NCBI RefSeq assembly: GCF_900625105.1 | Contig: NZ_UYYD01000002.1 | Span: 124,001-188,000, forward strand | Source: Agathobaculum sp. Marseille-P7918 | GTDB taxonomy: Bacteria > Bacillota > Clostridia > Oscillospirales > Butyricicoccaceae | Direction: 5' to 3' | DNA: 64,000 bases | Shown here: positions 2,831 through 38,510 of the stretch, in pieces | Layout: each line of letters begins with the position of its first letter | Position numbering within the stretch: the first letter of the stretch is position 1 | Translations under genes and position numbers: made by a program | The notes under the pieces: model-generated | What the model was told of the DNA's origin: nothing | Database searches by the model: none | Seen by the model: only the letters and a program-made list of their open reading frames with translations

Positions 2831-3990
2831 CCGGGGCAGCCCGCACGCCGGTCGTGGCGCTCATGGGCAACCCCAACGTCGGCAAATCTACCGTCTTTAA
2901 CGCGCTGACCGGCGCGCGCCAACACACCGGCAACTGGAGCGGCAAAACCGTGTCGGGCGCGCGCGGCGTGCTGCACTGCGGCGGGCGGGAGGTGGCGCTG
3001 GTCGATCTGCCGGGCACCTATTCGCTGCGCCCCCGCTCGGCGGAAGAGCGCGTGGCGCGGGATTTTCTCGTCTCGGGCGAGGCGAACGCCGCCGTGCTGG
3101 TGGCCGACGCGACCTGTCTCGAGCGCAACCTGATCCTGATTTTGCAGGTGCTCGAAGTCATCCCCAATGTGGTCGTCTGCCTCAACCTGATGGACGAGGC
3201 GCGCAAAAAGCGCATCCGCATCGACGTGCCCGCGCTCGCGCGCGAGCTGGGCGTGCCGGTCGTGCCGTGTGCGGCGCGGCGCGGCCGCGGCCTGCCGCAG
3301 CTGACGCAGGCGGTCTGCCGTCTGCTGGACGGGGAGACCGTGCCGCATCCGACGACGATCCGCTATCCCGCCGAGATCGAGCAGGCGGTGCGCGCGTCCG
3401 CTCTGCCCCGCGCCGAGGCGCTGGCCGCCCTGTCCGCGCAGCCGCCCGCAGGTCTGACCCCGCAGCAGCTGGACGACCGGATGACCGCCGCGGCCGCGCT
3501 GCGCGCCGAGGAGATCGCGCTGACCTGCGTGCAGGTCCCCGCGGACGCGGATGCGCGCGACCGGCGCATCGACCGCGTGCTGCTCAGCCGCCGGTTTGGG
3601 CTGCCGCTCATACTGCTGCTGCTCGCCGCCGTGTTTTACATCACCCTGTTCGGCGCCAATGTGCCGAGCGAATGGCTGGGCGACCACCTGCTCGGCCTCG
3701 GTGCGCCGTTCGCCGCCGGTCTTTCCGCCCTTGGGCTGCCGCCGTTTGCCGTTTCGCTGCTGGTTGACGGTCTGTGGCGCGTGCTGGCGACCGTCGTTTC
3801 GGTCATGCTGCCGCCCATGGCCATCTTTTTTCCGCTTTTCACGCTGCTCGAGGACGCCGGCTATCTGCCGCGCGTCGCCTTCCAGCTCGACCACGCTTTC
3901 CGCCGCGCGCACGCCTGCGGCAAGCAAAGCCTGACCATGTGCTTGGGTCAAAAACGGATGCGAAATCCGATGAATTTCCATCTACGTTAA
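2827..3990 (+). pseudogene. feoB: feoB, 5' part (372 codons, interrupted by the island)
   Basis: N-terminal part of the Fe(II) permease FeoB. It contains the complete cytosolic GTPase domain: G1 GNPNVGKST, G3 DLPGTYSLRPRS, G4 NLMDEA. The helical spacer and the first membrane segments follow (LPLILLLLAAVFYITLFGAN; RVLATVVSVMLPPMAIFFPLF). The text follows clostridial FeoB through GKQSLTMC at 3942 and then changes abruptly to unrelated residues ending at 3990. The missing continuation (MGFGCNACGVTGC...) begins at 38505. The start is a TTG whose second and third bases overlap the stop of feoA. As it stands the product would lack the C-terminal transmembrane half and should not transport iron. Confidence 0.92.
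3937..3962 (+). repeat. left end of the feoB island (attL-like site)
   Basis: The 6-bp direct repeat ATGTGC (3937-3942) is followed by TTGGGTCAAAAACGGATGCG at 3943-3962. Read outward, this arm matches the right end of the island (38483-38504) as an imperfect inverted repeat: GCTTGGG, an A-run and CGGATGCG are shared. FeoB homology stops exactly here. Confidence 0.8.
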
Positions 3991-4125
3991 AGGCAGTTAA
4001 AATGTAAGATAAGCTTTGGAAAGAGCGGTTGAGAACGCATTTTTACCGTGCTATACTCGCTTCTGGATACAGGGAAAGTCATTTTTCACACCCTGCAATT
4101 ACATGCAAAAAGGGAGTAATCACGA

Positions 4126-6042
4126 ATGCAGACAAAAAGAGTTTTGGCAGGCATCCTGACCAGCACGCTGCTGCTCGGCGCCTACCCGTTCGCTTCCGCG
4201 GCGGACTATAACGATTCGAGTGTCACCGGCGCCGCCGGCTGGCAGGCGTGGACCGAAGCGTGGAACACGGTCGCGACCGACTACACGCAGGTTTCCATGA
4301 CGCCCGGCGCGGACGAGACCCAGCTGAACTTCGCCTGGTACAGCAAGGACGAGGCCGGCAAGAGCGCAACGCCGGTCGTGCACTTCGGCACGGACAAAAA
4401 TAACCTCGCCAAGTTCACCGGCACCGCGGACGCCGTGGACACCAGCCTGACCGACGGCACCGCCTATTCCTACAACCACGTCACGGTGACCGGCCTTAAG
4501 GCCAACACCACCTACTACTACACGGTGGAAAAGAATGGTGTGCAGACCGAAGTCAAGACCTACCGGACCGGTGATTTTGAAAGCGCGCAGATCCTGTACG
4601 TCGGCGACCCGCAGATCGGCGCTTCCAAGGGCCAGTCGCAGAACGGCGAGGCGCTTGCCGGGGACAGCGGCGCGGCCAACACCGCTGCGCGCAACGACAG
4701 CTTCGCCTGGGACCGCACGCTGGACATCGCACTCGAGCAGAACCCCGGCCTGGACTTTGTGATCTCCGCGGGCGACCAGATCAACAAGACCGGCAAGCCC
4801 AAGGAAGAAGAGTACGCGGGCTACCTCTCCGCCAGCGCGCTGGCAAGCCTGCCGGTTGCCACCACGATCGGCAACCATGACTCGCTCAACGCGGACTACC
4901 AGTACCACTTCTTTAATCCGAACCAGACCGGTTACGGCGAAACCGAAGCGGGCGGCGACTACTACTACTCCTACGGCTCCGGCCTGTTCATCGTGCTCAA
5001 CACCAACAACTACAACGTGGCTGAGCATGAAAAGACCATTCAGGAAGCCATTGCCTCGGATCCGGACGCCACGTTCCGCATCGTCACCATCCATCAGGAC
5101 ATCTACGGCTCGGGCCTTGACCACTCGGATACGGACGGCATGATCCTGCGCACCCAGCTGACCCCGATCTTTGACGAGTACGACATCGACGTTGTCCTGC
5201 AGGGCCACGACCACACCTACAGCCGCACCAAGCTGCTCTACGGCGACGGCCAGACCCACGGCACCTACGAGTTCCGCCTGAACGAGGACGGCTCGGACTA
5301 CGACTGGGACAACGCGTACAACACCCAGACCGATGAGCAGATCCCGCTCTACCCCGAGGATGAGGCGGGCCAGACCAAACACGACGCCTTCCAGGCTGAT
5401 AACGAGTGCTACACCATCGAGGACGTTGACGGCAACACGGTCACCAACCCGCAGGGCATCCTGTACATGACCGCAAACTCGGCTTCGGGCTCCAAATTCT
5501 ATGAGCTGATCGCGTCCCAGCAGGATTACGTTGCCGAGCGCAGCCAGAACTGGCTGCCGAGCTACTCGGTCATCAACCTGACGGCCGACACCTTCTCGAT
5601 CGACACCTACCAGATCACCGAAGCGGGCAAGGTGGAAAAGATCGACGACACCTTCACCATCAAAAAGACCGACGAGCAGGCCGCAGCGGTCACCGTGGAC
5701 GGAGCAGCCAAGCAGGTTGCGACCGCCGACGTCAATGGCGAGACCTACTACCGCCTGCGCGACCTTGCCACTGCGGTAAACGGCACGGCTGCCCAGTTTA
5801 ACGTCGAGTGGAAGGACGGCGTCATCGTCATCACCGGCGAGCGCTACGACACCGCGGCGCTTGCCCCGGCTGCCGAGACCACCGGCGTCAAGGAGACCCT
5901 GACCATGCGGGTGGACGGCAAGACCGTGACCACGGCCGCCGCCAGCATCAAGGACAACTACTATGTCCCGGCCAGCCTGCTCAATACGCTGGGCATCCAG
6001 GGCACGGTTTCCGGCGACACGCTGACCATCACCACCAAGTAA
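4126..6042 (+). CDS. secreted purple-acid-phosphatase-like metallophosphoesterase with C-terminal stalk domain
   Basis: 638 aa. A signal peptide (MQTKRVLAGILTSTLLL...ASA) leads into a fibronectin-like N-terminal domain (about 50-145) typical of purple acid phosphatases. The metallophosphoesterase core follows with all five motif blocks: VGDPQIG, SAGDQ, GNHD, VTIHQD and GHDHTYSR (about 160-370). The last ~120 residues (TVDGAAKQVATADVNGETYYRLRDLA ... YYVPASLLNTLGI) form a copper-amine-oxidase-N-type domain often found in Firmicute cell-surface proteins. It should hydrolyse phosphate esters outside the cell; the substrate is unknown. GGGAG lies 8 bases before the ATG. It is monocistronic, with a terminator downstream, and is the first gene inside the island. 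Confidence 0.87.
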   Translation: MQTKRVLAGILTSTLLLGAYPFASAADYNDSSVTGAAGWQAWTEAWNTVATDYTQVSMTPGADETQLNFAWYSKDEAGKSATPVVHFGTDKNNLAKFTGTADAVDTSLTDGTAYSYNHVTVTGLKANTTYYYTVEKNGVQTEVKTYRTGDFESAQILYVGDPQIGASKGQSQNGEALAGDSGAANTAARNDSFAWDRTLDIALEQNPGLDFVISAGDQINKTGKPKEEEYAGYLSASALASLPVATTIGNHDSLNADYQYHFFNPNQTGYGETEAGGDYYYSYGSGLFIVLNTNNYNVAEHEKTIQEAIASDPDATFRIVTIHQDIYGSGLDHSDTDGMILRTQLTPIFDEYDIDVVLQGHDHTYSRTKLLYGDGQTHGTYEFRLNEDGSDYDWDNAYNTQTDEQIPLYPEDEAGQTKHDAFQADNECYTIEDVDGNTVTNPQGILYMTANSASGSKFYELIASQQDYVAERSQNWLPSYSVINLTADTFSIDTYQITEAGKVEKIDDTFTIKKTDEQAAAVTVDGAAKQVATADVNGETYYRLRDLATAVNGTAAQFNVEWKDGVIVITGERYDTAALAPAAETTGVKETLTMRVDGKTVTTAAASIKDNYYVPASLLNTLGIQGTVSGDTLTITTK

Positions 6043-6100
6043 ATCCACCCAGTAATCTTCCTTCTCTCCTAACCTTTGTTTCCCGTTTTTCCGGCAGATT

Positions 6101-6135
6101 CTCCGCGGATGACAGCGCATCCGCGGAGATTTTTC
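6101..6135 (+). terminator. intrinsic terminator after the phosphatase gene
   Basis: CTCCGCGGAT (6101-6110) pairs with ATCCGCGGAG (6119-6128), followed by ATTTTT. Confidence 0.8.
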
Positions 6136-6211
6136 CGGTTTTCCGACCCCTTTGTTTTTGCTTTGCCGGCCCGCTGCGCCGCGCAGGGCACGACCCATTT
6201 CCGTAAAGCGA

Positions 6212-7372
6212 GTGATTGATTTGCATACCGATAACCAACCCGTCCGCCGCCTGCTGCTGCGCTGGGCGCCGCCGCTGGTGCTGCTCTTGCTGTTCTGCGC
6301 GTTTGTGCTGCGCATCAATGTGGTGGACAAGACCGAACTGGTCTCCCGCGAGGGGCAGACCTTTGAAAAAGGCGTCGTCACCGAAGTGGTGCAGGACAAC
6401 TTGCAGCCGGACGGCAGCCGCGTGGGCGAGCAGCTGGTGCGCGTCCTGATGAAAACCGGTGAGCGCGCCGGCGAAACGCTCGAGATGACCAGCTCGTCCG
6501 GCTATCTGTTCGGCGCGGGCTGCACCGAAGGGATGAAGGTCATCGTCATGCAGAGCGTGTCGGGCGACTCAACCGTCGCGAGCGTCTACGCGCAGGACCG
6601 AGAAACCGTCATCTATATTTTCGCGGGGCTGTATCTGCTCGTGCTGTGCCTTGTAGGCGGCAAGCAGGGCGTCAAGGGCGCGCTCGGTCTGGTGTTCACG
6701 TTTTTCTGCATCCTGTTCGTATATCTGCCGCTCGTCTACCGCGGCCACTCCCCGTTCTGGGTGTCGGTGCTCATCTGCACAATCACCACAGTTGTGACCA
6801 TGTACCTGATCGGCGGGCCGACGATGAAAACGCTGGTCGCGACCGGCGGCACGGTCGCGGGCGTGTGCATCGCGGGTCTGGCCGCGACCGCGTTCAGCGC
6901 GGCCTCGGGCATCACGGGCTGGAACGTCAGCGACATCGAAAGCCTGCTGACGCTGTGGAACACGAACGGAATTCAGGTCGGCGGCCTGCTGTTTTCCGGC
7001 CTGCTGATCTCCAGTCTGGGTGCGACGATGGACGTGGCCATGTCGATCGGCAGCGCGATCAGCGAGATCCACGCCCAGACGCCGGAGATCCCCCGGCGCG
7101 AGCTGTTCCGCGCGGGCATGCGCGTCGGCCGCGACATGATGGGCACGGATTCCAACACGCTCATCCTCGCCTTTGCGGGCGGCAGCATCAGCATGCTCGT
7201 GCTCGACTACGCCTACGACCTGCCCTATCAGCAGATCATCAACTCCAACAACATCGGCATTGCGATCATGCAGGGGCTGGCCGGCAGCTTCGGCATCGTG
7301 CTGAGCGTCCCGGTGACCGTGCTGCTCGCCGTTTTCCTGTATACGCTCGGCTGGCAAAAACAATCTGTCTGA
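6212..7372 (+). CDS. YibE/F family multi-pass membrane protein
   Basis: About 386 aa. An N-terminal membrane helix (WAPPLVLLLLFCAFVLRI) precedes a ~110-residue extracytoplasmic domain. Seven or so membrane segments follow (IFAGLYLLVLCLVGG, GALGLVFTFFCILFVYLPLV, VSVLICTITTVVTMYLIGG and others). The signature GLLISSLGATMDVAMSIGSA, together with RVGRDMMGTDSNTLILAFAG, is characteristic of YibE/F. Function in Firmicutes is not settled; the lactococcal members were linked to membrane or phage-related phenotypes. The start is uncertain: GTG 6212 and TTG 6221 are both possible and no strong ribosome site is visible. It stands alone between two terminators. Confidence 0.82.
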   Translation: MIDLHTDNQPVRRLLLRWAPPLVLLLLFCAFVLRINVVDKTELVSREGQTFEKGVVTEVVQDNLQPDGSRVGEQLVRVLMKTGERAGETLEMTSSSGYLFGAGCTEGMKVIVMQSVSGDSTVASVYAQDRETVIYIFAGLYLLVLCLVGGKQGVKGALGLVFTFFCILFVYLPLVYRGHSPFWVSVLICTITTVVTMYLIGGPTMKTLVATGGTVAGVCIAGLAATAFSAASGITGWNVSDIESLLTLWNTNGIQVGGLLFSGLLISSLGATMDVAMSIGSAISEIHAQTPEIPRRELFRAGMRVGRDMMGTDSNTLILAFAGGSISMLVLDYAYDLPYQQIINSNNIGIAIMQGLAGSFGIVLSVPVTVLLAVFLYTLGWQKQSV

Positions 7373-7379
7373 CCTTCCA

Positions 7380-7417
7380 AAACGGCGGCGTCCTTGCAAA
7401 AAGGCGCCGCCGTTTTT
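7380..7417 (+). terminator. intrinsic terminator after the YibE/F gene
   Basis: AAACGGCGGCG (7380-7390) pairs with CGCCGCCGTTT (7405-7415), followed by further T residues. Confidence 0.85.
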
Positions 7418-7524
7418 CCTCAATCCGCACACTCTGGTACAAAATGTATGGAAAGTGCTGTCAATCTACACGGGAATACAAAAAATCGACGGGATATGCC
7501 GCCGGATTTCGGTCAATAACACTC

Positions 7525-7553
7525 TTGTAAAGCGTGCGTGTTTTGCTTAAAAT
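7525..7553 (+). promoter_or_regulatory. probable promoter of apt
   Basis: TTGTAA (7525-7530), 17-bp spacer, TAAAAT (7548-7553), about 80 bases before the apt start. I looked for a purine riboswitch in the leader and did not see one. Confidence 0.5.
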
Positions 7554-7633
7554 GATTTTGTATGATCTGTCGCCGCCGCGCGGCAGACGCCCACATGCAC
7601 CATACACAGACAAAACTGAACGAAGGAGGAAGC

Positions 7634-8158
7634 ATGAGCAAAATCGAACCATATATCACCAGCATCCCGGATTTCCCGGAACGGGGCGTGATCTTCCGGG
7701 ACATCACCACCGTGATCGGCAACGCGGACGGCCTGCAGCTTTCCGTGGACGAAATGGCGGCGCTGCTGGAGGGGGAAACGTTTGATGTGATCGCGGGACT
7801 GGAATCGCGCGGGTTCCTGTTCGGCATGCCGATCGCATACAAGCTGCACAAGGCCTTTATTCCGATCCGAAAGGCCGGAAAACTGCCGCGCGAAACCGCC
7901 GGCATGTCGTATGAGCTGGAATACGGCACCGCCTCGATCGAGGTGCACCGCAACGACATCCGCCCGGGCATGCGCATCGTGCTGGTCGATGACCTGATCG
8001 CCACCGGCGGCACGCTTGAGGCCGCCGTCAAGCTGCTCGAGTCGCTCGGCGCGAAGGTCGTCAAGATCGTGTGCCTGCTCGAGCTCAAGGGCCTGCACGG
8101 CCGCGACCGTCTGGCCGATCACCCGCTCGCCACCGTGGTCTCCTACGACGGCAAATAA
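7634..8158 (+). CDS. apt: adenine phosphoribosyltransferase
   Basis: 174 aa, the normal length for Apt. The enzyme converts adenine and PRPP to AMP in cytoplasmic purine salvage. The type I PRTase signature is complete: IPDFPERGVIFRDITT at the N-terminus, GLESRGFLFG, and the PRPP loop VLVDDLIATGGT. The start is the ATG at 7634, behind GAAGGAGGAA; an upstream ATG in the same frame lacks a ribosome site. A purine permease follows 45 bases downstream, so uptake and salvage are coupled. Presence of a housekeeping-type salvage pair inside an island is unusual. Confidence 0.93.
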   Translation: MSKIEPYITSIPDFPERGVIFRDITTVIGNADGLQLSVDEMAALLEGETFDVIAGLESRGFLFGMPIAYKLHKAFIPIRKAGKLPRETAGMSYELEYGTASIEVHRNDIRPGMRIVLVDDLIATGGTLEAAVKLLESLGAKVVKIVCLLELKGLHGRDRLADHPLATVVSYDGK

Positions 8159-8203
8159 TACGCAAGGGGAAAAAGAGAAACGCAAAAGGGGCTGAAAACA
8201 AAC

Positions 8204-9565
8204 ATGTTTGAAAAGATGTTCAAACTGACAGACAACCATACCACCGTCCGCACCGAGGTCATGGCAGGCATCACCACCTTCATGACCATGGCATACATCC
8301 TTGCGGTCAACCCGAGTGTCCTCGGCTCGACCGGCATGGATACGACCGCCGTTCTGCTGGCCACCGCGCTGGCGTCCTTCATCGGCACGATCTGCATGGC
8401 CTTCATGGCCAACCTGCCGTTTGCGCTGTCCGCCGGCATGGGCCTGAACGCCTTCATGGCCTACACGGTCGTCGCCGGCTACGGCTACAGCTGGCAGGTC
8501 GCGCTGCTCGCGGTCTTTATCGAGGGCCTGATCTTCATCGTGCTGTCGCTGACCAACGTGCGTGAAGCCATCTTCAACGCCATCCCGCTGACGCTCAAAA
8601 AGGGCGTTTCGGTCGGTATCGGCCTGTTCATCGCCTTCATCGGCCTGCAGAACGCGGGCCTGTCGGTCGATTCCTCCACGCTCGTCACCATCACGAGCTT
8701 CACCGACAACTTCCACACCGCCGGCATCTGCGCGCTGCTCGCGCTGGTCGGCCTGTTCATCACCGCGGTGCTGTATATCCATAAGGTCAAGGGCGCCATC
8801 CTGTTCGGCATTTTGCTGACCTGGATCATCGGCATGCTTTGCCAGCTGGTCGGGCTGTATGTGCCGGACGCGGAAGCGGGCTTCTACACCCTGTTCCCGG
8901 CCTTCGGCATGACCGATTTCTCCAAGCTCGGCCTGACCTTCGGCCAGTGCTTCAATGTGGATTTCGGCGCGGTCGGCATCATCAACTTCATCGTCGTCAT
9001 CTTCTCGTTCCTGTTTGTCGATATCTTTGATACGCTCGGCACGCTGATCGGCGTTGCCACCAAGGCGGACATGCTCGACAAGGACGGCAAGCTGCCCGGC
9101 ATCAAGCCCGCGCTGCTGTCCGACGCGATCGCGACTTCGGCGGGCGCCATCCTCGGCACCTCGACCACCACGACCTTCGTCGAATCCGCTTCCGGCGTTG
9201 CCGTCGGCGGCCGCACCGGCCTGACCGCACTGGTCACCGGCGTGCTGTTCCTGATCTCCACGCTGTTTGCGCCGATCTTCACCGCGATCCCGTCGTTTGC
9301 CACCGCGCCGGCGCTGATCATGGTCGGCTTCCTGATGGTCGGCACGGTCACCGAGATCCGCTTCGATCTGGACAACCTGACCGACGCCATCCCGGCTTAC
9401 CTCGCCATCATCTCCATGCCGCTGTTCTACAGCATCTCGGAAGGCATCTCGATGGGCGTCATTTCCTATGTGCTGCTCAACCTCGCCGCAGGCAAGGGCA
9501 AGAAGGTCACCCCGCTCATGTATGTGCTGGCGGTGCTGTTCATCCTCAAGTATATCTTCCTGTAA
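8204..9565 (+). CDS. NCS2-family purine permease (AzgA/PbuG type)
   Basis: 453 aa, a polytopic membrane protein of about 12-14 segments that should import adenine, guanine or hypoxanthine. Family marks: EVMAGITTFMTMAYILAVNP near the N-terminus, FALSAGMGLNAFMAY, and the IFDTLGTLIGVATKADML segment near residue 280. TSTTTTFVESASGVAVGGRTGL follows, the substrate-binding region of AzgA proteins. AAAGGGG lies rather far (12 bases) before the ATG. It is probably co-transcribed with apt. Confidence 0.9.
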   Translation: MFEKMFKLTDNHTTVRTEVMAGITTFMTMAYILAVNPSVLGSTGMDTTAVLLATALASFIGTICMAFMANLPFALSAGMGLNAFMAYTVVAGYGYSWQVALLAVFIEGLIFIVLSLTNVREAIFNAIPLTLKKGVSVGIGLFIAFIGLQNAGLSVDSSTLVTITSFTDNFHTAGICALLALVGLFITAVLYIHKVKGAILFGILLTWIIGMLCQLVGLYVPDAEAGFYTLFPAFGMTDFSKLGLTFGQCFNVDFGAVGIINFIVVIFSFLFVDIFDTLGTLIGVATKADMLDKDGKLPGIKPALLSDAIATSAGAILGTSTTTTFVESASGVAVGGRTGLTALVTGVLFLISTLFAPIFTAIPSFATAPALIMVGFLMVGTVTEIRFDLDNLTDAIPAYLAIISMPLFYSISEGISMGVISYVLLNLAAGKGKKVTPLMYVLAVLFILKYIFL

Positions 9566-9580
9566 GCCGATCACTGTACG

Positions 9581-9617
9581 GACCGCTGTCCCCCTTCGGG
9601 GGCGGCGGTCTTTTTTT
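9581..9617 (+). terminator. intrinsic terminator after apt-permease
   Basis: GACCGCTGTCCCCC pairs with GGGGGCGGCGGTC around a TTC loop, followed by T7. Confidence 0.9.
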
Positions 9618-9632
9618 GCACCAAACCCACAA

Positions 9633-9661
9633 TTGACGGCACGCGGCCTGTCGGGTACAAT
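9633..9661 (+). promoter_or_regulatory. promoter of the deacetylase gene
   Basis: TTGACG (9633-9638), 17-bp spacer, TACAAT (9656-9661), 40 bases before the start codon. Confidence 0.65.
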
Positions 9662-9701
9662 GGGATAAACCCCTACCCGCATCCCGCAAAGGAGGTACGA
9701 T

Positions 9702-11453: not shown

Positions 11454-11470
11454 CCGCACAACCAACAGCC

Positions 11471-11507
11471 AAACGGGACGCACCATCCACCTCGGTGCGT
11501 CCCGTTT
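11471..11507. terminator. terminator between the deacetylase and recombinase genes
   Basis: 14-bp perfect stem (11471-11484 with 11494-11507) shared by the convergent genes. The recombinase stop codon (11506-11508) lies at its edge, so the recombinase gene abuts the deacetylase terminator directly. Confidence 0.85.
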
Positions 11508-13116: not shown

Positions 13117-13156
13117 GCTCTTTCCCTCCTGTCACCGCCCAGACGGTCCCGACGGA

Positions 13157-13273
13157 TTATGCCGGTTCCTCGGCCGTTTCTTCCTCAAACTGCGCCGCGA
13201 TGACGTTCTCGAGCAGCTCGAGCAGGACGCGGCGGGCCTGCGCCGACTGTGCGGTTGTCTCAGTGACGGGCAT
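13157..13273 (-). CDS. 38-aa acidic protein upstream of the recombinase
   Basis: Small ORF starting MPVTETTAQSAQARR, with a predicted amphipathic helix (VLLELLENVIAAQFEEE) and an acidic tail. The ribosome site AGGAGG is optimal, 7 bases before the ATG at 13271-13273. It ends 40 bases before the recombinase start on the same strand, so the two are probably co-transcribed. I do not recognise a family. Position and size would fit a recombinase accessory or directionality protein, but that is inference from context only. Confidence 0.6.
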   Translation of the reverse strand: MPVTETTAQSAQARRVLLELLENVIAAQFEEETAEEPA

Positions 13274-13389
13274 GGGTTGGCCTCCTTTCCGTTCCGGTAC
13301 CATCCTATGCGTCCTTCCCACACAAATTGCCTGCGGAAGGGCCGTTTCCTCCTCGGGGCCGGCATGCGCAACCGCCTGCTGCTTTCTTG

Positions 13390-13540: not shown

Positions 13541-13587
13541 TTTATCAGCAGCTGCAAAGAATCCATCATAAAGAGGAGAAGCACACC

Positions 13588-29945: not shown

Positions 29946-29956
29946 GCGCTTTCACC

Positions 29957-30784
29957 TCAGAGTTTACCGCCGGACGTTGCAATGCCTTCTACAAACTGCT
30001 TCTGGAAAATCAGGTAAATGACGATCATCGGGATGCACGCCAGCAGCGATGCCGCCATCAGCTCCGGATAATCAGACGAGAAGGTGCCCTGCAGCTTGGC
30101 CAGCGCCGAAGCCAGCGGCATCGTTGCCTGATTGGTGTTGACGACCAACGGCCACATCAGATCCTTGAATGCGAACAGCGCAGTAAAGATGCCCAGTGCC
30201 ACCATGCCGGATTTGGCCAGCGGCAGCATGATAAACAGGAAAGTCTGTCCAACATTGCACCCATCCAAACGGGCGGATTCCTCCAGCTCCTTGGGCAGAT
30301 TGATGAAGTTCTGCCGCATCAGGAAGGTACCAAATGCCGTCACAAGGCCGGGGAAGATCAGCGCGAAAATACTGTTCTGCGCGCCAAGTGCATTGATCAT
30401 CAGGTACTGCGGGATGATGAAGATCTGCGTCGGAATCATCATCTGGAAAATAACCAGTGTAAACAGCAGCTTTTTGCCCTTGAACTCCAACCGTGCAAAC
30501 GCATAGCCTGCCATCGTTGCCGTCAATACCGCACATACCACGCGGCCTACGATCATCCAGATGGTGTTCCAATAAAGCTGCGGAATATCCATTTTTGCGA
30601 TCGCGCTTTCAAAGCCGTCCAGCAGCCACTTCGAAGGGAAGATGACAAAAGGATTCACCTGCGTTGCCTCTGTAACCGATTTGAACGCCGTCAGAACCAT
30701 CCAAATAAAGGGAACCAGCATCACAACGGCACCAATGGAAAGCAAACAGATCGCCAAAATATTTTTGCTTCGTTTTTTGCCCAT
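29957..30784 (-). CDS. CUT1 sugar ABC transporter permease, MalG type
   Basis: 275 aa with six membrane helices. The EAA loop, which docks the ATPase, is ELEESARLDGCNVGQTFLFI (about residue 185). Typical MalG start (SIGAVVMLVPFIWMVLTAFKS). Partner permease and binding protein genes lie just upstream in the operon. Confidence 0.93.
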   Translation of the reverse strand: MGKKRSKNILAICLLSIGAVVMLVPFIWMVLTAFKSVTEATQVNPFVIFPSKWLLDGFESAIAKMDIPQLYWNTIWMIVGRVVCAVLTATMAGYAFARLEFKGKKLLFTLVIFQMMIPTQIFIIPQYLMINALGAQNSIFALIFPGLVTAFGTFLMRQNFINLPKELEESARLDGCNVGQTFLFIMLPLAKSGMVALGIFTALFAFKDLMWPLVVNTNQATMPLASALAKLQGTFSSDYPELMAASLLACIPMIVIYLIFQKQFVEGIATSGGKL

Positions 30785-30830
30785 AACGTCTCCTTTCCCA
30801 AGTTCAAACCATCGTCGGTTTCTTCTTTTC

Positions 30831-31745
30831 TCAGTTATAGTGCACCCATTTCTTTTCCAGGTAATTCTGGAACAATGTGATGACCATAATAATCATAAGA
30901 AGCAGAATAACGATCGTTGAACCGTAACCCTTATTGCCTTCGATGAAGGAATAATTATAGAACAGGTATACCAGCGACTGCGTTTCTCCCAATGCGGGGT
31001 TGCTCAGATCCATCATCATATAGATCACGTCAAACACCTGCATCGCCGCAATCAGGCGTGTAACCAGGACGAAGAACAGGGTCGGCGAAAGCAGCGGGAT
31101 TGTAACGTTGAAAAACTGCTGCACCGAATTTGCCCCGTCAATACGGGCCGCCTCATAATAGTCCTTCGGGATTTCCTGCAGGCCCGCCAAAAACAGCACC
31201 ATGTTGTATCCAATCACCGACCAGATGCCAACCACAGCCACCGAGTAAATCGCGATCTTAGGATCGGAAATCCAATTGACCGGCCCGAATCCAAAGATGC
31301 CCAGAATATGATTGAGCAAACCGAACTGACTGTTATACAGCCACCGCCAAACCATTGCCACGGCAGCGGGTGCCGCAATCATGGGTAAGAAATAAATGGT
31401 GCGGAATGCCACCCGGCATTTCATTTTGCGGTTTAAAAGCACTGCCAGCAGCAAGGCGATGACAATCGAAATCGGCACTTCAACAATCGTATACCGGATC
31501 GTATTCCATACGGCCTGCCAAACGGAAGAATCATGGATCAGTGTGATATAATTCTGCAATCCAATGAAAATGTTTCCTTTTCCAAAATCGCCTGTTTTGA
31601 AAAAGCTCTGGTAAATGGTTTGAAAAATAGGAATGATATTCAGAACGATTAAACCAAGTATGGTGGGGAGCACCATAAGGTATCCCCACCATGCTTCGTT
31701 ACGCTTTTTCGCAGAATATCTTACGGCTTTATTTTTTCCGCTCAT
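30831..31745 (-). CDS. CUT1 sugar ABC transporter permease, MalF type
   Basis: 304 aa with about six membrane helices (GYLMVLPTILGLIVLNIIPI first). The EAA motif reads YYEAARIDGANSVQQFFNVT (about residue 200). It forms the channel with the MalG-type partner. AGGAGG is well placed before the ATG. Confidence 0.93.
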   Translation of the reverse strand: MSGKNKAVRYSAKKRNEAWWGYLMVLPTILGLIVLNIIPIFQTIYQSFFKTGDFGKGNIFIGLQNYITLIHDSSVWQAVWNTIRYTIVEVPISIVIALLLAVLLNRKMKCRVAFRTIYFLPMIAAPAAVAMVWRWLYNSQFGLLNHILGIFGFGPVNWISDPKIAIYSVAVVGIWSVIGYNMVLFLAGLQEIPKDYYEAARIDGANSVQQFFNVTIPLLSPTLFFVLVTRLIAAMQVFDVIYMMMDLSNPALGETQSLVYLFYNYSFIEGNKGYGSTIVILLLMIIMVITLFQNYLEKKWVHYN

Positions 31746-31774
31746 GGTATTCCTCCTGCGAATTGCATTTTTTG

Positions 31775-33079
31775 TTAATTGGTTTCTTTCAAAATCTGAT
31801 TCATCTGCTCTGCAATGTTCTTGCAGGTCTCTTCCGGCGTCTTTTCACCCGTGAAGCCCGCGCCAATCTCTTCCTTGATCATATTGGCCCAGTTGACCGT
31901 ACGGCGGGAGTGCGGGAAAATCACCATCGTGTCATCCATAACATCCAGATACGCCTGCAGATTGAACTCAGGATGTGCATTGATCCAGTTATCCGAAGTA
32001 CCTTCCCAAGCCGACATCATAACGCCCAGATCGGACTGCATCTGCTGTGCTTCCTGCGAGCCCAGATACTCAATGACCTTCCAAGCCGTTTCCGGATCAG
32101 AGGAGTTTGCCGGAGCCGCCCAGGCAACGCCATTGTAAATGGTGGTGCGGACATTGTTCGGACCCATCGGCTTGATCACAACATCGCAGTTTTCCTTCAC
32201 ATATTCGTTGTTCGTCAGGTCGTTTACCTTCCAGGAGCCCTGCAGCGTCATCGCTACCTGGCCGGACATGAACAGCGTGCAGTCGCCGTTTTCCACCAGC
32301 GTCGTGTACGGCGGCATATAGCCGTTCTTCTCCATATCCATCAGGACGGTGAGGCCCTCAATGGTGCCCGGCTGGTCAAAACCGGAGGTCTGCTGGTCGT
32401 CCGAAAGGACATATCCGCCGTAATCGTAAATGATGTTGTAGTAACCGCCCTGATCATTATCCGGGCTGACTGCGAAACCATACTGGCTGCCGTCCGCCTT
32501 CGTCAGCTTCTGGGCTGCTGCCGCAACGTCTTCCCAAGTCCAGGTATCATCCGGATACGCCAGACCGGCTTCGTCAAACATCGTCTTGTTGTACCAAAGC
32601 GCTACCGTATCAATGTCCTTCGGAATGCCCAGCTGCGCGCCGTCCTCATTCTGATACAGACTTACGATATCCTGCGGATATTTGCTCATATCAATTTTAT
32701 CGCTCTTGGAAATGTAATCGGTCAGATCGAGCAGCATATCATTTTCTGCATACTTGGCAATTTCATTGGAATGCATAATGAATACATCCGGCATCGAACC
32801 GCCAGTCGCTGCAGCTTCCAGCATGGTCCAGTACTGATCCCAGGGGGTCACCTCGATGCGGGTCTCAATACCGGTTTCTTCGGTAAATTTCTTAAGGATT
32901 TCGGTAAACCCAGGCTCCTGCGGAGAATCCCACATGGCAACCGTGATCACATCGCTGCTGCCACTGGACTGCGATGCATCCGAATTTGCCGCATCCTGAT
33001 CTGTGGATGTCTGGCCGCAGCCAACCAAACCCGCCAGCATCGCTGACAAAAGCGCCCAACCAATCAATCGTTTTTTCAT
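31775..33079 (-). CDS. sugar ABC transporter substrate-binding lipoprotein
   Basis: 434 aa, family 1 extracellular solute-binding protein. A lipoprotein signal ends in LVGCGQ (lipid-modified Cys about residue 21). The mature part shows ITVAMWDSPQEPGFTEILKKF, WDQYWTMLEAAATGGSMPDVF and the PFAWAAP-like GVAWAAPANSS block. It captures the galactoside outside the cell. First gene of the nine-gene minus-strand operon (33079 to 22009), with gaps of at most 46 bases; AAGGAG precedes the ATG. Confidence 0.92.
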   Translation of the reverse strand: MKKRLIGWALLSAMLAGLVGCGQTSTDQDAANSDASQSSGSSDVITVAMWDSPQEPGFTEILKKFTEETGIETRIEVTPWDQYWTMLEAAATGGSMPDVFIMHSNEIAKYAENDMLLDLTDYISKSDKIDMSKYPQDIVSLYQNEDGAQLGIPKDIDTVALWYNKTMFDEAGLAYPDDTWTWEDVAAAAQKLTKADGSQYGFAVSPDNDQGGYYNIIYDYGGYVLSDDQQTSGFDQPGTIEGLTVLMDMEKNGYMPPYTTLVENGDCTLFMSGQVAMTLQGSWKVNDLTNNEYVKENCDVVIKPMGPNNVRTTIYNGVAWAAPANSSDPETAWKVIEYLGSQEAQQMQSDLGVMMSAWEGTSDNWINAHPEFNLQAYLDVMDDTMVIFPHSRRTVNWANMIKEEIGAGFTGEKTPEETCKNIAEQMNQILKETN

Positions 33080-33560
33080 TTTCTGACACTCCTTTTCAAT
33101 TCCTGCTGATTACCTTGTCACTCTTCTCTTCATAAGAATCATGTCCTTAACGACAAACGAATCTTACCATAGGATTCTTTTTGAGAATAGTGAATTTTCC
33201 ATCGCAAATAGAAAATTTGTTTCAATTTCTTTCATCCAGTCGCTTACAATTTTACAGCTTCTTTTTGTCTGTTATGCACAATTATATTAAAAAGCGCTGC
33301 CTGTCATTTCAGAATAATGTCCATATTTTCCCTAAAAATCCCATTTCCCCTTTTCGTAACTTATTGATTTTCATCCTGTGATGCGCCGCCTTCGGAATAG
33401 AAAATTTGTCGCAGCATTCTCTCTTACTGCGCATCCATATCAGCACTGTATCTGCACAGGCTCTCCATCTGTCCCGCCCTACTTCTCTTCTGCACAGCAC
33501 CATACCACGCACTGTTTGATATGAAGTATTCCGCATCAAAAGGTGTTGCTTTCCCGCGCA
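33080..33560. other. AT-rich intergenic region upstream of the sugar operon
   Basis: No gene. It should hold the promoter and regulator site of the sugar operon. A TAAGAT-like -10 on the minus strand lies within a GAATC...GATTC inverted repeat near 33157-33178, a possible operator, but no good -35 is seen. A short run (TAGAAAATTTGT) occurs twice, near 33206 and 33399. The stretch 33420-33540 holds nothing I recognise. Confidence 0.4.
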
Positions 33561-33609
33561 CCGCATCCGACTTTTCCCCAAGCACGTGATTGGGTGAAAA
33601 ATAAATGCC
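33561..33609 (+). repeat. internal attachment-like junction: right end joined to a left end
   Basis: 33561-33584 is identical over 24 bases to the right end of the island at 38482-38505. It is followed by ACGTGA in place of ATGTGC. Next comes TTGGGTGAAAAATAAATGCC (33590-33609), which matches the island left end at 3943 in about 15 of 20 positions. The layout right-end / 6 bp / left-end is what a junction between two adjacent elements, or a circular-form attachment site, would look like. Confidence 0.72.
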
Positions 33610-33630
33610 ACCAGACACTGCACTTGCTTC

Positions 33631-33672
33631 GGACAAAAAGCAGCCACCGGAACAATCGTTCCAGTGGCTGCC
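33631..33672 (-). terminator. 42-bp repeat copy 2, terminator of the two-component operon
   Basis: Identical to 13390-13431. On the minus strand the hairpin (arms GCAGCCAC.GGAAC) ends in T5, 36 bases after the stop of the histidine kinase gene, so it should terminate that operon. Confidence 0.8.
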
Positions 33673-33707
33673 CACTATATTGTCATGCCGGCGCACCGGC
33701 AAATTCA

Positions 33708-34817
33708 TTATCCATCTGCCGAAAGCACGGCCTGCGGCGGAAATCGCACCGCGATGGTCGTTCCTTCCTCCGAGCTTTTTTCCACCCAAACCGAGCCGCC
33801 GTGCAGCGCGGCGATCTCCCAAACGAGCGACAGACCCAACCCAACGCCGCCGTATTCCCGGCTGCGCGATTTGTCCACGCGAAAAAACGGATGGAAAATG
33901 CTGTGCTGATAAGCCTCTGGAATGCCGCAGCCGGTATCGGCAATGCGGATCTGCAAACCGGACTCCTCCCGGGCTACCGCCACGCCCACCATCCCGCCAG
34001 GGCGGTTATACTTGATGGCGTTTTCCGTCAGATTGAACAGCATCCGATAAAGCAAGGGATCGCTGCCGGTCATGGTGGCGTCGCCCTCCCGCTCCAAGGC
34101 GATCCCGCGCTGTTCTGCCAGCGGCGCAAGGTCGGTGAAAATCTCCTCGATCATCGGCCCGAGCTGGATGCGGTCCGTGCGCGGCGCAGATTGCAGGCTG
34201 TTCATCTCCAGCAGCGTCTGGGACAGCTGGGACAGCCGCTCGGTCTGCTCCCGCAGCAGGCCGAGGAATTCCGCTGTTTCAGGCAGCACCTCCGGATGCT
34301 CGGCGGCAAACAACTCGAGCTGCGCCTGCATCAGCGCCAGCGGCGTGCGCAGTTCATGGGCTGCGTTGCCGGTGAACTGCCGCTGGGTTTCAAACGCGCG
34401 GCTCAGCCGCTCCAGCATCTGGTTGAACGACCGGCTCAGCTGCCGGAACTCCGGCAGCAAATCCTCGTCGATTTTGATTTCCGCCAGATTGGTCAGCTGC
34501 ACCTGTTCCACCTGCGCGGCAAAGCGCCGCAGCGGCCGGAGCGCCCGCCCGCTGACAAAATACGCCAGCACGCCGCCGAGCAGCGTGACCCCTGCGGTCA
34601 TATACCAATTGGTCATGCAGAAATCTTCCTGCGTTTCGCGGATGAAAGCGCTGGTTTCCGCGCCCGCCCCGCCGCTGCGCGCCTGCACAAACTGCCCAAT
34701 GGCGTCCATATAGCCGATGCCGGACGAGCAAAGCAGCAGTTTCATGGCAACACAGGTGACGCCGATGAGCAGGACGGTCATCAGGGTGATCCGCCACTGA
34801 AGGGAGAGCCGTTTCAT
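33708..34817 (-). CDS. sensor histidine kinase
   Basis: 369 aa. Two membrane helices (about 12-32 and 73-92) flank a short ~40-residue outer loop. HAMP-like linker, then the dimerisation/phosphoacceptor H-box NAAHELRTPLA (about 150-160) and the ATPase blocks N (LTENAIKYN), G1 (IADTGCGIP), F (FFRVDKSRS) and G2 (GGVGLGLSLV). Its ATG overlaps the stop of the response regulator gene (ATGA). The pair is divergent from the redox-repair genes and presumably controls them. Confidence 0.92.
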   Translation of the reverse strand: MKRLSLQWRITLMTVLLIGVTCVAMKLLLCSSGIGYMDAIGQFVQARSGGAGAETSAFIRETQEDFCMTNWYMTAGVTLLGGVLAYFVSGRALRPLRRFAAQVEQVQLTNLAEIKIDEDLLPEFRQLSRSFNQMLERLSRAFETQRQFTGNAAHELRTPLALMQAQLELFAAEHPEVLPETAEFLGLLREQTERLSQLSQTLLEMNSLQSAPRTDRIQLGPMIEEIFTDLAPLAEQRGIALEREGDATMTGSDPLLYRMLFNLTENAIKYNRPGGMVGVAVAREESGLQIRIADTGCGIPEAYQHSIFHPFFRVDKSRSREYGGVGLGLSLVWEIAALHGGSVWVEKSSEEGTTIAVRFPPQAVLSADG

Positions 34818-35491
34818 GGTTCCGTTCCTCCCATCAGATACCCTTCGCCGATGCGGTTGCGGATGGGATCGTATCCCAGCGCCGCGCGCAGCTTTTTGCG
34901 CAGGGACGAAATATGCACCCGGATGGAATTGCTGAACGTATCGACACTGTTATCCCAGACGTGCTCCAGCAGTTCCTCCTGACTGACCGGCCGTCCTTGA
35001 TGGAACATCAGATATTCCATGATCCCGGTCTCCTTGCGTGTGAGCGTCAGCGTCTGCCCACGGGCGGCGGCCGTGCGCGCCTTTGTGTCAAAGGTCAGCG
35101 GCCCGCAGGACAACATCACATCGTGCTGGGTGAACTGCCGCAGCGTCAGGCTGCGGATCCGGGCTTCCAGTTCCGCCAGATGGAAGGGTTTGGACAGATA
35201 GTCATTGGCGCCGGCGTCCAGCCCCTCCACCTTATCGGCGACCTCGTTGCGCGCCGACAGGATGAGCACCCGTGTCTCCCGGTCGGTCTGGCGCAGCTTG
35301 CGCAGCACGGTCATCCCGTCCTGTCCGGGCAAATTCAAATCCAGCAGCACCAGATCATACCGCTCGGTTTGCAGCAGCTCGAGCGCTTTCTCGCCGTCAT
35401 AGCAAAAATCCACGCTGTAAGCCAGCCGCCGCAGGCTCCGGACGATGGTCTGGCACAGGGCGCGTTCATCTTCCACGACCAACAGATGCAT
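34814..35491 (-). CDS. OmpR/PhoB-family response regulator
   Basis: 225 aa. Receiver domain with acidic pocket VVEDER, phosphoacceptor Asp in LVLLDLNLPGQDG (about residue 51), the Ser/Thr in LILSARN and Lys in LSKPFH. A winged-helix DNA-binding domain follows (TLTRKETGIMEYLM ... VHISSLRKKL). The start ATG at 35491 has GGAGGAG 6 bases upstream. Translationally coupled to the kinase. Confidence 0.93.
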   Translation of the reverse strand: MHLLVVEDERALCQTIVRSLRRLAYSVDFCYDGEKALELLQTERYDLVLLDLNLPGQDGMTVLRKLRQTDRETRVLILSARNEVADKVEGLDAGANDYLSKPFHLAELEARIRSLTLRQFTQHDVMLSCGPLTFDTKARTAAARGQTLTLTRKETGIMEYLMFHQGRPVSQEELLEHVWDNSVDTFSNSIRVHISSLRKKLRAALGYDPIRNRIGEGYLMGGTEP

Positions 35492-35532
35492 TTTCACTCC
35501 TCCTTTCCGGTTTTCGTCATACCGATGCATTC

Positions 35533-35607
35533 ATTATAGCAGAGGCGGATAAAGTTTTTGTTAAATTTCTGTTTTTAACGCAGATCTTAACTGCCATACG
35601 GTATGAT
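35533..35607. promoter_or_regulatory. divergent promoter region with direct repeats for the response regulator
   Basis: A minus-strand TATAAT (35533-35538) faces the regulator gene and a plus-strand TATGAT (35602-35607) faces the redox genes. Between them TTAAC occurs at 35575 and 35587, 12 bases apart, with TTAAA at 35561. This is the spacing class of OmpR-type half sites. Neither promoter has a good -35, which suggests activation by the regulator. Confidence 0.5.
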
Positions 35608-35630
35608 AAAAGCGCAAACGGAAAGGAGGA

Positions 35631-35783
35631 ATGCAGTTGTTCCTTTCAAAACGGACTGCAGCACAGCTCATCCTGTTCGCCGCGGGCATTGCCATGACCG
35701 TCTTCGGCGTCTGGCGCGGCGAAGCGGATACCGTGCTGTACAAGGCGATCAATCTATGTCTGGAGTGTGTGGGCATTGGATAA
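35631..35783 (+). CDS. 50-aa CXXC membrane protein, CD1871A-like
   Basis: Short ORF, MQLFLSKRTAAQ start, with one hydrophobic helix (LILFAAGIAMTVFGVW) and the C-terminal INLCLECVGIG signature of the CD1871A family of CXXC mini-proteins. AAAGGAGG lies 2-3 bases before the ATG, close but usable. Its end overlaps the start of the 4Fe-4S protein. The paired cysteines facing the membrane boundary could relay electrons between the polyferredoxin-like protein and the thioredoxin-like lipoprotein; that role is inferred from context. Confidence 0.8.
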   Translation: MQLFLSKRTAAQLILFAAGIAMTVFGVWRGEADTVLYKAINLCLECVGIG

Positions 35784-36720
35784 AAGACCTTTTGGCGTGT
35801 CCCGCCTGCTGTCCCGCTGCCGTGGTTGGATACAGGCAGGCGCCGCTCTGCTGACCAACCTTCATCTTCCCAACTTCCTCCGGGGCGGACTGTATCAGGG
35901 GCCCGGGAAACGCTTGTGCGTTCCGGGGCTCAACTGTTACTCCTGTCCGGCATCGGCCGGCGCTTGTCCCATCGGGGCGTTTCAGGCCGTGGTGGGTTCC
36001 TCCAAATTCCACTTTTCCTATTATATTACCGGCCTGCTGATCCTGCTGGGCGTGCTGCTGGGACGGTTCATCTGCGGTTTCCTTTGTCCGTTCGGCTGGT
36101 TTCAGGAGCTGCTGTACAAAATCCCGCTTGCAAAGCGCTCCACCAAGGCGCTCTACCCGCTGACCTGGCTCAAATATCTGGTTCTGCTGGGGATGGTCGT
36201 GCTGCTTCCCATGCTGGCGGTGAACCAAGCGGGCTTGGGCGATCCGTTCTTTTGCAAATACCTCTGTCCGCAGGGCGTACTGGAGGGCGCCATCCCGCTG
36301 GCGCTGGTCAATCCCGGCATCCGCGCCACACTGGGTGATCTGTTCCTCTGGAAATGCGGCATTCTGCTGGCTGTGATCCTATGCAGCATCGCATTCTTCC
36401 GTCCGTTCTGCAAGTGGCTGTGCCCGCTGGGCGCGTTTTACGCCCTGTTCAACCAGATTTCACTGGTTCGGATGCAAGTGGACCAGACAAAATGCATTTC
36501 CTGCGGGAAGTGCGCCAAGGCCTGCAAAATGGATGTGGACGTGACTCGGACGCCGGACCACACCGAATGCATCCGCTGCGGCATGTGCGTCCGGGCCTGT
36601 CCCACCGGCGCTGTGCGCTTCTGCTGCGGCGCGCCGTCCGGCAAAGCCCGAAGCGGCGCCGGACAAACCGCACAGCCGACCCCGCAAACCGACCCTACCA
36701 AGCAAGGAGAAAAACCATGA
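35776..36720 (+). CDS. 4Fe-4S polyferredoxin-like membrane protein (NapH/CcoG type)
   Basis: About 314 aa. Cysteine clusters occur early (CYSCPASAGACP) and after each of several membrane helices (CGFLCPFGW, CKYLCPQG, CKWLCPLG), the pattern of the NapH/RnfB-like 4Fe-4S_5 domain. Two classic CxxCxxCxxxC ferredoxin sites lie near the C-terminus (CISCGKCAKACKMDV; CIRCGMCVRACPTG). I take TTG 35776 as start, since an upstream GTG lies farther inside the previous gene. It probably carries electrons across the membrane to the TlpA-like and MsrAB lipoproteins. Confidence 0.85.
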   Translation: MDKRPFGVSRLLSRCRGWIQAGAALLTNLHLPNFLRGGLYQGPGKRLCVPGLNCYSCPASAGACPIGAFQAVVGSSKFHFSYYITGLLILLGVLLGRFICGFLCPFGWFQELLYKIPLAKRSTKALYPLTWLKYLVLLGMVVLLPMLAVNQAGLGDPFFCKYLCPQGVLEGAIPLALVNPGIRATLGDLFLWKCGILLAVILCSIAFFRPFCKWLCPLGAFYALFNQISLVRMQVDQTKCISCGKCAKACKMDVDVTRTPDHTECIRCGMCVRACPTGAVRFCCGAPSGKARSGAGQTAQPTPQTDPTKQGEKP

Positions 36721-37307
36721 ACAGAACCAAATTTGCCGCGCTGCTGCTGACCGCGCTTTTCGCGCTTTCTCTGGCAGCCTGCGGCGCAAAGAGCCAACCG
36801 GACACGACCGAAGACATGGCTCCGTCTGCGGACGCATCCATGCAGCAATTTCCCGCCTTTGAGGGGAAGGATCTGGACGGAAATGCGGTGAACAGCCAAG
36901 ACCTGTTCTCCGAAAACGCCGTCACAGTGGTCAACTTCTGGTTCACCACCTGCGGCCCCTGTGTCGGGGAGCTGGCCGATCTGGATGCCCTGAACAAGGA
37001 GCTCCAGAAGCAGGACGGCAGGCTCATCGGCATCAATGCCTTCACGCTGGACGGCAATGAAACGGCGGTTGCCGAGGCCAAGGACGTTCTGGCAAAGACC
37101 GGTGCCTCCTATACGAACGTCTATTTTGATTCCGACAGTGAAGCAGGCACGTTTGCCTCGGGCGTGTACGCTTACCCTACGACGTATGTGGTAGACCGCA
37201 GCGGCAATCTCGTAGGCGAGCCCATTTTGGGGGCGGTGACCGAACCCAAGCAGATGGAATCCCTCAAGCAAATGATCCAGCAGGCGATCGACCAGGACAA
37301 GGGATAA
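36717..37307 (+). CDS. TlpA/ResA-like thioredoxin lipoprotein
   Basis: 196 aa. Lipoprotein signal with lipobox SLAACGAK (Cys about residue 22), then a thioredoxin fold with the redox-active CGPC in FWFTTCGPCVGEL (about residue 81) and the cis-proline YPTTYVVD near 160. It overlaps the previous stop (ATGA). Anchored outside the membrane, it should accept electrons from the membrane protein and reduce the MsrAB partner encoded next. Confidence 0.92.
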   Translation: MNRTKFAALLLTALFALSLAACGAKSQPDTTEDMAPSADASMQQFPAFEGKDLDGNAVNSQDLFSENAVTVVNFWFTTCGPCVGELADLDALNKELQKQDGRLIGINAFTLDGNETAVAEAKDVLAKTGASYTNVYFDSDSEAGTFASGVYAYPTTYVVDRSGNLVGEPILGAVTEPKQMESLKQMIQQAIDQDKG

Positions 37308-37346
37308 GCACATCGTATCCCCGGAACGCAGGAGGTGTTATTTTTT

Positions 37347-38468
37347 ATGCGAGGCAAGGTTCTTTCGCTTCTTTTGGCGTCTGTACTGATGCTGGGCGGC
37401 TGTGCCGCGCAGCCCAATGCGCCGCAGCCGACCGACGAACAGGAAACCCCGCCGCCGGCAGCCGGACAGTCTGCCGGCGCATCCGAAAAGGAGAATATGT
37501 ATATGGATTCTACTGAAAACGTCATCTATCTGGCCGGCGGCTGCTTCTGGGGCATGGAGCACCTGATGCAGTCCATCCCCGGCGTCATTGATGCGCAAAG
37601 CGGCTACGCCAACGGCACCGGCGAGGCCGATGCCAATTACCGGGCGGTCTGCGCCGGCAACACGGGTTTCCGGGAAACCGTGCGCGTGGAATACGATCCG
37701 GAGCAGGTCAGTCTGGACGCACTGCTGCTGGCGTACTTCTATGTCATCGACCCCACGGTGCAGAACCAGCAGGGCAACGACCGGGGCACCCAGTATCAGA
37801 CCGGTGTCTATTATACCAACGACAAGGCAAAGGAGACCGTCGATCGGATCGCTGCGATCGAACGCAGCCGCAGTGAGGAATTTTTTGTGGAAATCGGCCC
37901 GCTGATGAATTTTTATCCGGCCGAGGAATACCATCAGGATTATCTGGAGAAAAACCCCTTCGGCTACTGCCATATCCCGACCGAGGAAATCGCGCTGTTT
38001 TCCAAGCTGCGCATCGATCCGGGGGACTACCGCAAGCCCGCGGCGGAATCCATTCGCGACAAGCTGACCGACGAGCAATACCGCATCACACAGGAAAACG
38101 GCACAGAACACGCGTTTGACAACGCCTTCTGGGACCAGTTTGAAAAGGGCATCTATGTGGATATCGTGACCGGCGAACCGCTGTTTTCCTCTACGGACAA
38201 GTTTGAAAGCGGCTGCGGCTGGCCCGCTTTTTCCAAGCCCATCGAATCCCCGGCGGTGGTCGAGCTGCCGGACGACAGCCTCGGCATGCACCGCACGGAA
38301 GTCCGCAGCCGGGCGGGCAACTCGCATCTCGGCCATGTCTTTACCAATGATCCCGAGTCCCCCAACGGCGTGCGCTACTGCATCAACAGCGCGGCGCTGC
38401 GTTTCATCCCCTATGAAAAAATGCAGGCCGAAGGCTATGGTTACCTGCTCGATCTGTTCGACGACTGA
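37347..38468 (+). CDS. msrAB: MsrA-MsrB fusion methionine sulfoxide reductase, lipoprotein
   Basis: 373 aa. Lipobox MLGGCAAQ (Cys about residue 19). The MsrA domain (about 57-210) holds the catalytic Cys in GGCFWGME, with GYANG and EEYHQDYL. The MsrB domain (about 228-372) has [14 protein letters not shown] and the catalytic Cys in [11 protein letters not shown]. It repairs both sulfoxide epimers of methionine in surface proteins. GGAGGTG precedes the ATG. It is the last gene of the redox operon and ends only 14 bases before the island's right end repeat. Confidence 0.95.
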
Positions 38469-38481
38469 CCGCTTGCCCCTC

Positions 38482-38510
38482 CCGCATCCGACTTTTCCCC
38501 AAGCATGTGC
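38482..38510 (+). repeat. right end of the feoB island (attR-like site)
   Basis: The arm 38483-38504 (starting CGCATCCG, ending CCCCAAGC) is the imperfect inverted partner of the left end, and ATGTGC (38505-38510) repeats the bases at 3937-3942. The same 24 bases (38482-38505) recur at 33561-33584. Confidence 0.82.

Follow-up and report, generated by a model that had tools for sequence, protein, structure and literature searches.

DNA-splicing elements in sporulation genes are already known from skin and gin. The skin element, which encodes a large serine recombinase (LSR), splits the mother-cell sporulation gene sigK in Bacillus subtilis and Clostridioides difficile and is excised precisely, with a directionality factor reported to be required in C. 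difficile (PMC5025042). The gin element in gerE of Bacillus cereus ATCC10987 is a non-phage element that splits another sporulation gene and uses a site-specific recombinase together with an extra factor, GirX; the abstract of that report gives one insertion site (PMC5595907). Phage or prophage-like insertions are described in further sporulation genes, namely yin in yabG of Clostridium botulinum and SP-beta in spsM of B. subtilis (PMC10747680, PMC4191935). In heterocyst-forming cyanobacteria, nifD, nifH and hupL are reported to carry several elements per gene, the recombinases clustering by insertion site and the smallest elements holding little beyond the recombinase (PMC4874684). Here we analyze a 64,000-nucleotide stretch of Agathobaculum sp. 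Marseille-P7918 (contig NZ_UYYD01000002.1, positions 124,001 to 188,000; hereafter the window), in which the Fe(II) importer gene feoB is interrupted by a 34.6-kb island. We consider it probable that the gene codes for an iron importer of the mother cell and that the island, as a gene-intervening element, leaves it during sporulation in the manner of skin or gin.

The island has two properties of a gene-intervening element, direct repeats whose joining restores a reading frame and an encoded site-specific recombinase. Unlike skin, it interrupts an iron transporter rather than a sigma factor, feoB is entered at four sites by five LSR groups, and we infer excision here. It differs from gin in gene and cargo, and from yin and SP-beta in that no phage gene was seen in the window element, though one relative (G011) has a prophage at the same codon. 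The heterocyst elements belong to different hosts and a different developmental program, and the window LSR reaches 81 bits with the XisF model of the fdxN element, against a curated cut-off of 375. Staphylococcal cassette chromosome (SCC) elements have an LSR, imperfect inverted ends and tandem cassettes, one without a recombinase, and their target is a gene other than feoB. The island resembles them in these features, but its best-scoring Ccr model, CcrB, gives 99 bits against a curated cut-off of 900. By analogy with skin and gin, the cuts in feoB of related bacteria point to a similar developmental splicing; in the titles and abstract openings of the open papers that our searches listed, no description of feoB as an insertion site was found, nor did these searches find a paper that combines feoB with a large serine recombinase.

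An island with defined ends splits feoB in frame

The window feoB breaks off and resumes at two copies of ATGTGC, at 3937 and 38505, lying 34,568 bp apart. Its N-terminal half (2827..3942, forward strand), comprising the G domain and the first membrane part, matches positions 1-356 of the 594-position TIGR00437 profile, and the C-terminal half (38505..39338, forward) matches positions 361-594; when the flanks are joined at ATGTGC, a single frame of 648 codons including the stop results. The left attachment site, attL (3937..3962, forward), consists of the core ATGTGC and the left end TTGGGTCAAAAACGGATGCG, and attR (38483..38510, forward) of the right end CGCATCCGACTTTTCCCCAAGC and the core. 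On the inside, the two ends form imperfect inverted repeats: CGCATCCGACTTTTCCCCAAGC at the right differs from the reverse complement of the left end at 4 of 22 positions. An earlier note on this DNA had described the in-frame split, its 6-bp repeat and the inverted repeats of about 22 bp inside both joints, all of which were confirmed; what it had overlooked is that the end pair occurs a third time, at 33562-33609, and there separates two tandem elements of 29.6 kb (A) and 4.9 kb (B) within the insert.

The same codon is occupied in most related genomes

The group under comparison comprised 25 genomes, 22 of which have a classifiable close orthologue of the window feoB. The gene is split at the same codon in 17 of the 22 and intact in five (G008, G010, G016, G018, G021), so that the empty sites whose search the earlier note had suggested do exist. 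Six split genes have their halves on two contigs, and in G014, counted as split, only the C half was found. The remaining 10 of the 17 have both halves on one contig (G005 with part of the C half only), including one assembly that is a single 4.0-Mb contig and another in two contigs, which makes an assembly error, a concern raised in the earlier note, unlikely. G002 is also split, its FeoB being divergent (47-58%) and outside the 22, and from G019 and G020 no feoB orthologue was obtained. Intact feoB of G018 lies in the same neighbourhood, with feoA, feoB and uvrD adjacent, and the intact G016 is the sister of the split G023.

The codon also accommodates other elements. G011 and G024 have inserts there with other ends, their LSRs being 99% identical, and G009 has a 3.6-kb element at the same codon, yet again with other ends. 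Judged by its open reading frames (ORFs), among which terminase-, portal- and tail-like ones were recognised by eye, the G011 insert (L090-L091, G011:C1 3134865-3161320) is a prophage, and it includes a 471-aa serine integrase ORF. A second LSR is present in the G024 insert. Sequences resembling the window ends with up to three mismatches occur at 25 places in 14 of the 25 genomes, all at feoB or, in G000 and G002, also within the feoB insert. A single viral contig matched the circular junction; we regard this match as due to chance, its locus holding no LSR or feoB match.

Both gene halves are under purifying selection

The 21 N halves and 22 C halves from this group contained neither stops nor frameshifts. 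Across seven split species (21 pairs; synonymous divergence dS ~0.56), the median ratio of nonsynonymous to synonymous divergence (dN/dS) was 0.115 for FeoB-N and 0.065 for FeoB-C, with 0.058 for the control uvrD. Group-wide, constraint in split pairs is no weaker than in intact pairs (0.155 vs 0.251 for the N half, 0.134 vs 0.191 for the C half). G005 and G006 have the same element genes in the same order, at a divergence like that of the chromosome; their FeoB-C halves show 3 nonsynonymous vs 49 synonymous differences over 195 codons (P 5e-24), and their FeoB-N halves 26.5 vs 72.5. Under neutrality, 17.3 stops would be expected along the tips of the seven species and none was seen; for G005 and G006 alone 3.3 would be expected, and 3.4% of simulations gave none. 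Both feoB halves are thus under purifying selection.

Recombinase groups follow four insertion sites in feoB

The LSR of element A (536 aa; 11506..13116, reverse strand) has Pfam Resolvase, Recombinase, Zn ribbon and DUF4368 domains, and its relatives lie beside FeoB halves. Among the best 80 of 563 LSR relatives, 18 loci have an LSR 44-87% identical to that of the window, and 15 of these have a FeoB half in the available flank; the other three are two contigs shorter than 8 kb and the G002 locus, where the FeoB half is ~19 kb away. The remaining 62 loci of the 80, with more distant LSRs, have no FeoB half in the available flank (0/62). Of the named loci in this set with an LSR at 63-87% identity, 11 of 12 are labelled Agathobaculum and one Butyricicoccus. 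A search at the level of the order, taken with related matches, gave 31 loci: a FeoB half was found in nine, three more lie in genomes known to be split, two on 6-7-kb contigs are ambiguous, and the 17 more distant LSRs have no FeoB half in flanks of ~1.5 kb or less. In a sample of the class, 5 of 391 genomes exceeded the strict score, and in each of them the LSR lies next to a FeoB half. On a contig from a viral collection (L244, 1316-4794), a feoB piece is bracketed by two LSRs of different groups.

In some related bacteria feoB is divided further, into four pieces in G649 and G047 and three in G044. Each of these inserts has an LSR near a junction, and the G047 insert at MCMGFGCN has two. 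Four recurrent sites were recognised in feoB: a, near HTGNWPGKT; b, WRVLA/WVVSVM; c, MCMGFGCN; and d, NGRFP. The LSRs fall into five groups sorted by site, with identities of 50% within site b (two loci), 51-62% within site d (three loci) and 58-63% within a second group at site c (four loci, two of them 99% alike). The site-a group is weak, because its two LSRs share 33%, compared with 31% to a site-b LSR. Outside the 22 genomes, 31 pieces of 15 interrupted genes amount to 7,962 codons with no stop; pieces were located by homology, so that a wholly decayed gene would escape this count, and in G047 one alignment segment with a TAG starts 11 residues before the stop-free piece counted. L187 has a shortened LSR and an eroded repeat, both feoB halves being still open, and the cores at the junctions of G570 and L187 are imperfect. 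Junction repeats in these further genomes were chosen by eye, from up to three candidates each, for restoring conserved residues, and the site-d junction of G649 was likewise read by eye. The chances seem to us evenly balanced that feoB is, more broadly, a gene in pieces in spore-forming Firmicutes, that is, a mother-cell iron importer with four codon sites and five LSR groups that would undergo several independent excisions in each sporulating cell and persist as a fragmented germ-line copy.

Promoter boxes suggest a possible link of feoAB to the mother-cell program

Upstream of feoA (2585..2830, forward; Pfam FeoA, E 5.9e-20) lies a sigma-K-type promoter box (2500..2524, forward) consisting of AC at 2500-2501, 15 nt and CATAGCAT at 2517-2524. 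The feoA leaders of the group share CATAG.ATG, mostly with AC 15-17 nt upstream, and the pattern AC-N15:17-CATANNNT was found in 18 of 20 feoA leaders (all but G004 and G023) but in none of the 164 regions examined upstream of 20 other reading frames. Among non-redundant leaders, 11 of 18 have the box; 2000 mononucleotide shuffles gave 0.52 such leaders on average and never more than 4. The two other feoB genes of the window genome showed no such box in their upstream regions. Vescimonas fastidiosa has a like box, ACTTCATCCACCTCCCCGGCATACAAT, before an intact feoB; in this region (L012, 4992-11009), feoB adjoins genes annotated as coding for sporulation proteins (YabP/YqfC family, YqfD). Downstream of the promoter box, the feoA leader contains a hairpin-forming stretch (2532..2556, forward), recognised by eye in an alignment of 20 sequences, whose stem letters differ between species.

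In C. difficile, promoters of sigma-E and sigma-K are described as having similar -10 boxes, with ATA or AC at -35, and a table of the sigma-K regulon, available as flattened text, lists feoA-feoB (CD1518-CD1517) with a ratio of 0.05 in the sigK mutant and a sigma-K promoter (PMC3789822). SpoIVA was found in 20 of the 25 group genomes. By analogy with C. difficile, another species, and on the basis of the promoter boxes, the window feoB looks like a sporulation-type gene of the mother-cell program.

A -10-like box also precedes the LSR operon. The first ORF of that operon, of 38 aa (13157..13273, reverse), has a strong Shine-Dalgarno sequence and is a candidate recombination directionality factor. 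In 11 of 16 loci an ORF with the conserved motif ...LLxLLENVIxAQFE... lies 157-182 nt upstream from the recombinase gene; the window ORF has no match in Pfam or NCBIfam. A mother-cell-sigma-like -10 box, CATAGGAT (13302..13309, reverse), lies 36 nt upstream of it, and in 16 of 29 loci the LSR operon has CATANNNT within 75 nt upstream, compared with 1.36 expected by shuffling, the loci not being independent.

Cargo and neighbouring genes

Element A (3943..33583, forward; delimited by its ends, the internal junction and its genes) includes, besides the LSR, apt, a permease, a deacetylase and a galactose/ABC-transport block. The internal A/B junction (33562..33609, forward) is made of the right end CGCATCCGACTTTTCCCCAAGC, a core ACGTGA and a left end TTGGGTGAAAAATAAATGC, and the right ends of A and B are identical over 22 bp. 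Element B (33584..38504, forward) encodes a two-component system, a 4Fe-4S membrane protein, a thioredoxin-like protein and MsrAB, and no recombinase was found in it. With its junction (33562-38504), this element, lacking a recombinase and having the 22-bp right end of A, resembles a passenger cassette moved in trans. Homologues of its MsrAB occur in 3 of the 25 genomes, its own and two at 52% identity on contigs other than those of their feoB. None of the 30 island ORFs that were scanned with Pfam has a phage structural domain. The same terminator-like stretch, GCAGCCACCGGAACAATCGTTCCAGTGGCTGC, lies upstream of the recombinase operon (13386-13432) and at the left end of B (33628-33673), and may mark an old element boundary.

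The apt gene and the xanthine/uracil-type permease (7562..9565, forward) are shared cargo: in 11 of the 14 genomes with the window LSR family, window included, they lie next to the LSR or to a feoB half, at 70-98% identity. In G008, G010 and G022 (L161, L162, L160) the pair adjoins uvrD, away from feoB, pointing to a rearrangement or to an element that captured chromosomal genes. In the window, the right neighbour of feoB is the uvrD/pcrA helicase gene (39454..41859, forward; assigned by Pfam), which in G018 adjoins the intact feoB. The window genome comprises 2.83 Mb in 36 contigs and has, in open frames 842 and 720 codons long, two further matches to FeoB_N.

Weighing the explanations

Ordinary site-specific islands and prophages could simply use conserved feoB codons as attachment sites, leaving feoB broken until the insert is lost, with unprogrammed excision and young insertions that turn over fast. 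The cargo varying between species, the prophage and the 3.6-kb element at the same codon, and the empty sites scattered over the feoB tree all agree with this, as does the discordance of LSR and chromosome distances inside the seven-species clade. Against it stand the stop- and frameshift-free halves with 17 of 22 sites filled, and the element genes shared by G005 and G006 at chromosome-like divergence next to two halves still selected. Over 11 and 14 genomes, moreover, LSR and chromosome distances agree (rho 0.89 and 0.85, P 0.0005), and the sigma-K-type box before feoA also speaks against it, making this explanation possible but rather unlikely. It is highly improbable that the halves act as two separate polypeptides and the split is tolerated. 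Both halves are open and the window C half starts with ATG at the core, but no Shine-Dalgarno sequence precedes it: anti-Shine-Dalgarno energies range from +0.4 to +3.8 in the 14 genomes split by the window LSR family, while uvrD and the permease have medians of -8.1 and -7.8, and G009, whose insert has other ends, has -3.5. We set the split-protein reading aside on this strength; in addition, two prophage-split genomes have ATC, not ATG, at the core, and pieces of 27-62 codons in G649, G047 and G044 could hardly work alone. A switch by which a population turns vegetative Fe(II) uptake reversibly on and off, in line with the idea of the earlier note, is very improbable as well. In-frame restoration and the existence of empty sites would allow it, and the part of that interpretation in which a site-specific island splits feoB stands. 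That Fe(II) import is off while the island is integrated is not supported, since the genome has two more feoB frames, which also weakens a general iron-uptake switch. The sporulation-type box in the feoAB leader and the sigma-K listing in C. difficile make restoration in a terminal cell type likelier than a vegetative switch. A return after loss would need the circle to be kept. The cargo permease is missing from G016 and G018, whose sites are empty, and equally from G023, whose site is filled, leaving this a weak argument.

Several observations weigh against a developmentally excised element. No excised circle (attP) or mixed state appeared in the 25 group genomes. Seven of the 18 non-redundant leaders gave no promoter box, including those of four interrupted genes (G122, G570, L177, G002), and for the LSR operon a -10-like box was seen with no clear -35. 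SpoIVA was not found in 5 of the 25 genomes, all five split and 78-90% complete. In Clostridium acetobutylicum, feoA and feoB are placed in a transitional-phase expression cluster, not the late one (PMC2530871). Inside the seven-species clade, LSR distances do not track the chromosome (rho 0.11, P 0.32). By dS, the G006 LSR is closer to that of G017 (0.37) than to that of G005 (0.44). Both findings indicate that elements or LSRs were exchanged and that insertion ages are uncertain; apt and permease correlate weakly with the chromosome in this clade (0.44, P 0.06) and at 0.51 (P 0.014) with uvrD alone.

Proposed mechanism and biological meaning

On the developmental explanation, which we hold to be probable, the LSR would have placed the island at the conserved MCMGFGCN codons of a feoB of sporulation type, and the LSR with a small partner, for which the 38-aa ORF is the candidate, would excise it precisely. 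Excision would most likely take place in the mother cell, where the sigma-K-type promoter is predicted to drive feoAB, a timing that we infer from the promoter boxes and from another species. The island would thereby stay in the germ line, and the doomed mother cell would gain an intact Fe(II) importer. In related bacteria, further LSR groups use the three other sites of feoB. Excision in a terminal cell would explain how an insert that breaks feoB persists with both halves still selected.

If excision is developmental, an iron transporter would be one more of the few genes that sporulating bacteria reassemble by DNA splicing, and five LSR groups with natural sites in one gene provide test material. 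It would also suggest that elements land preferentially in late mother-cell genes, where an insertion is of little cost to the germ line, and would point to iron uptake as a step of late sporulation in gut Firmicutes.

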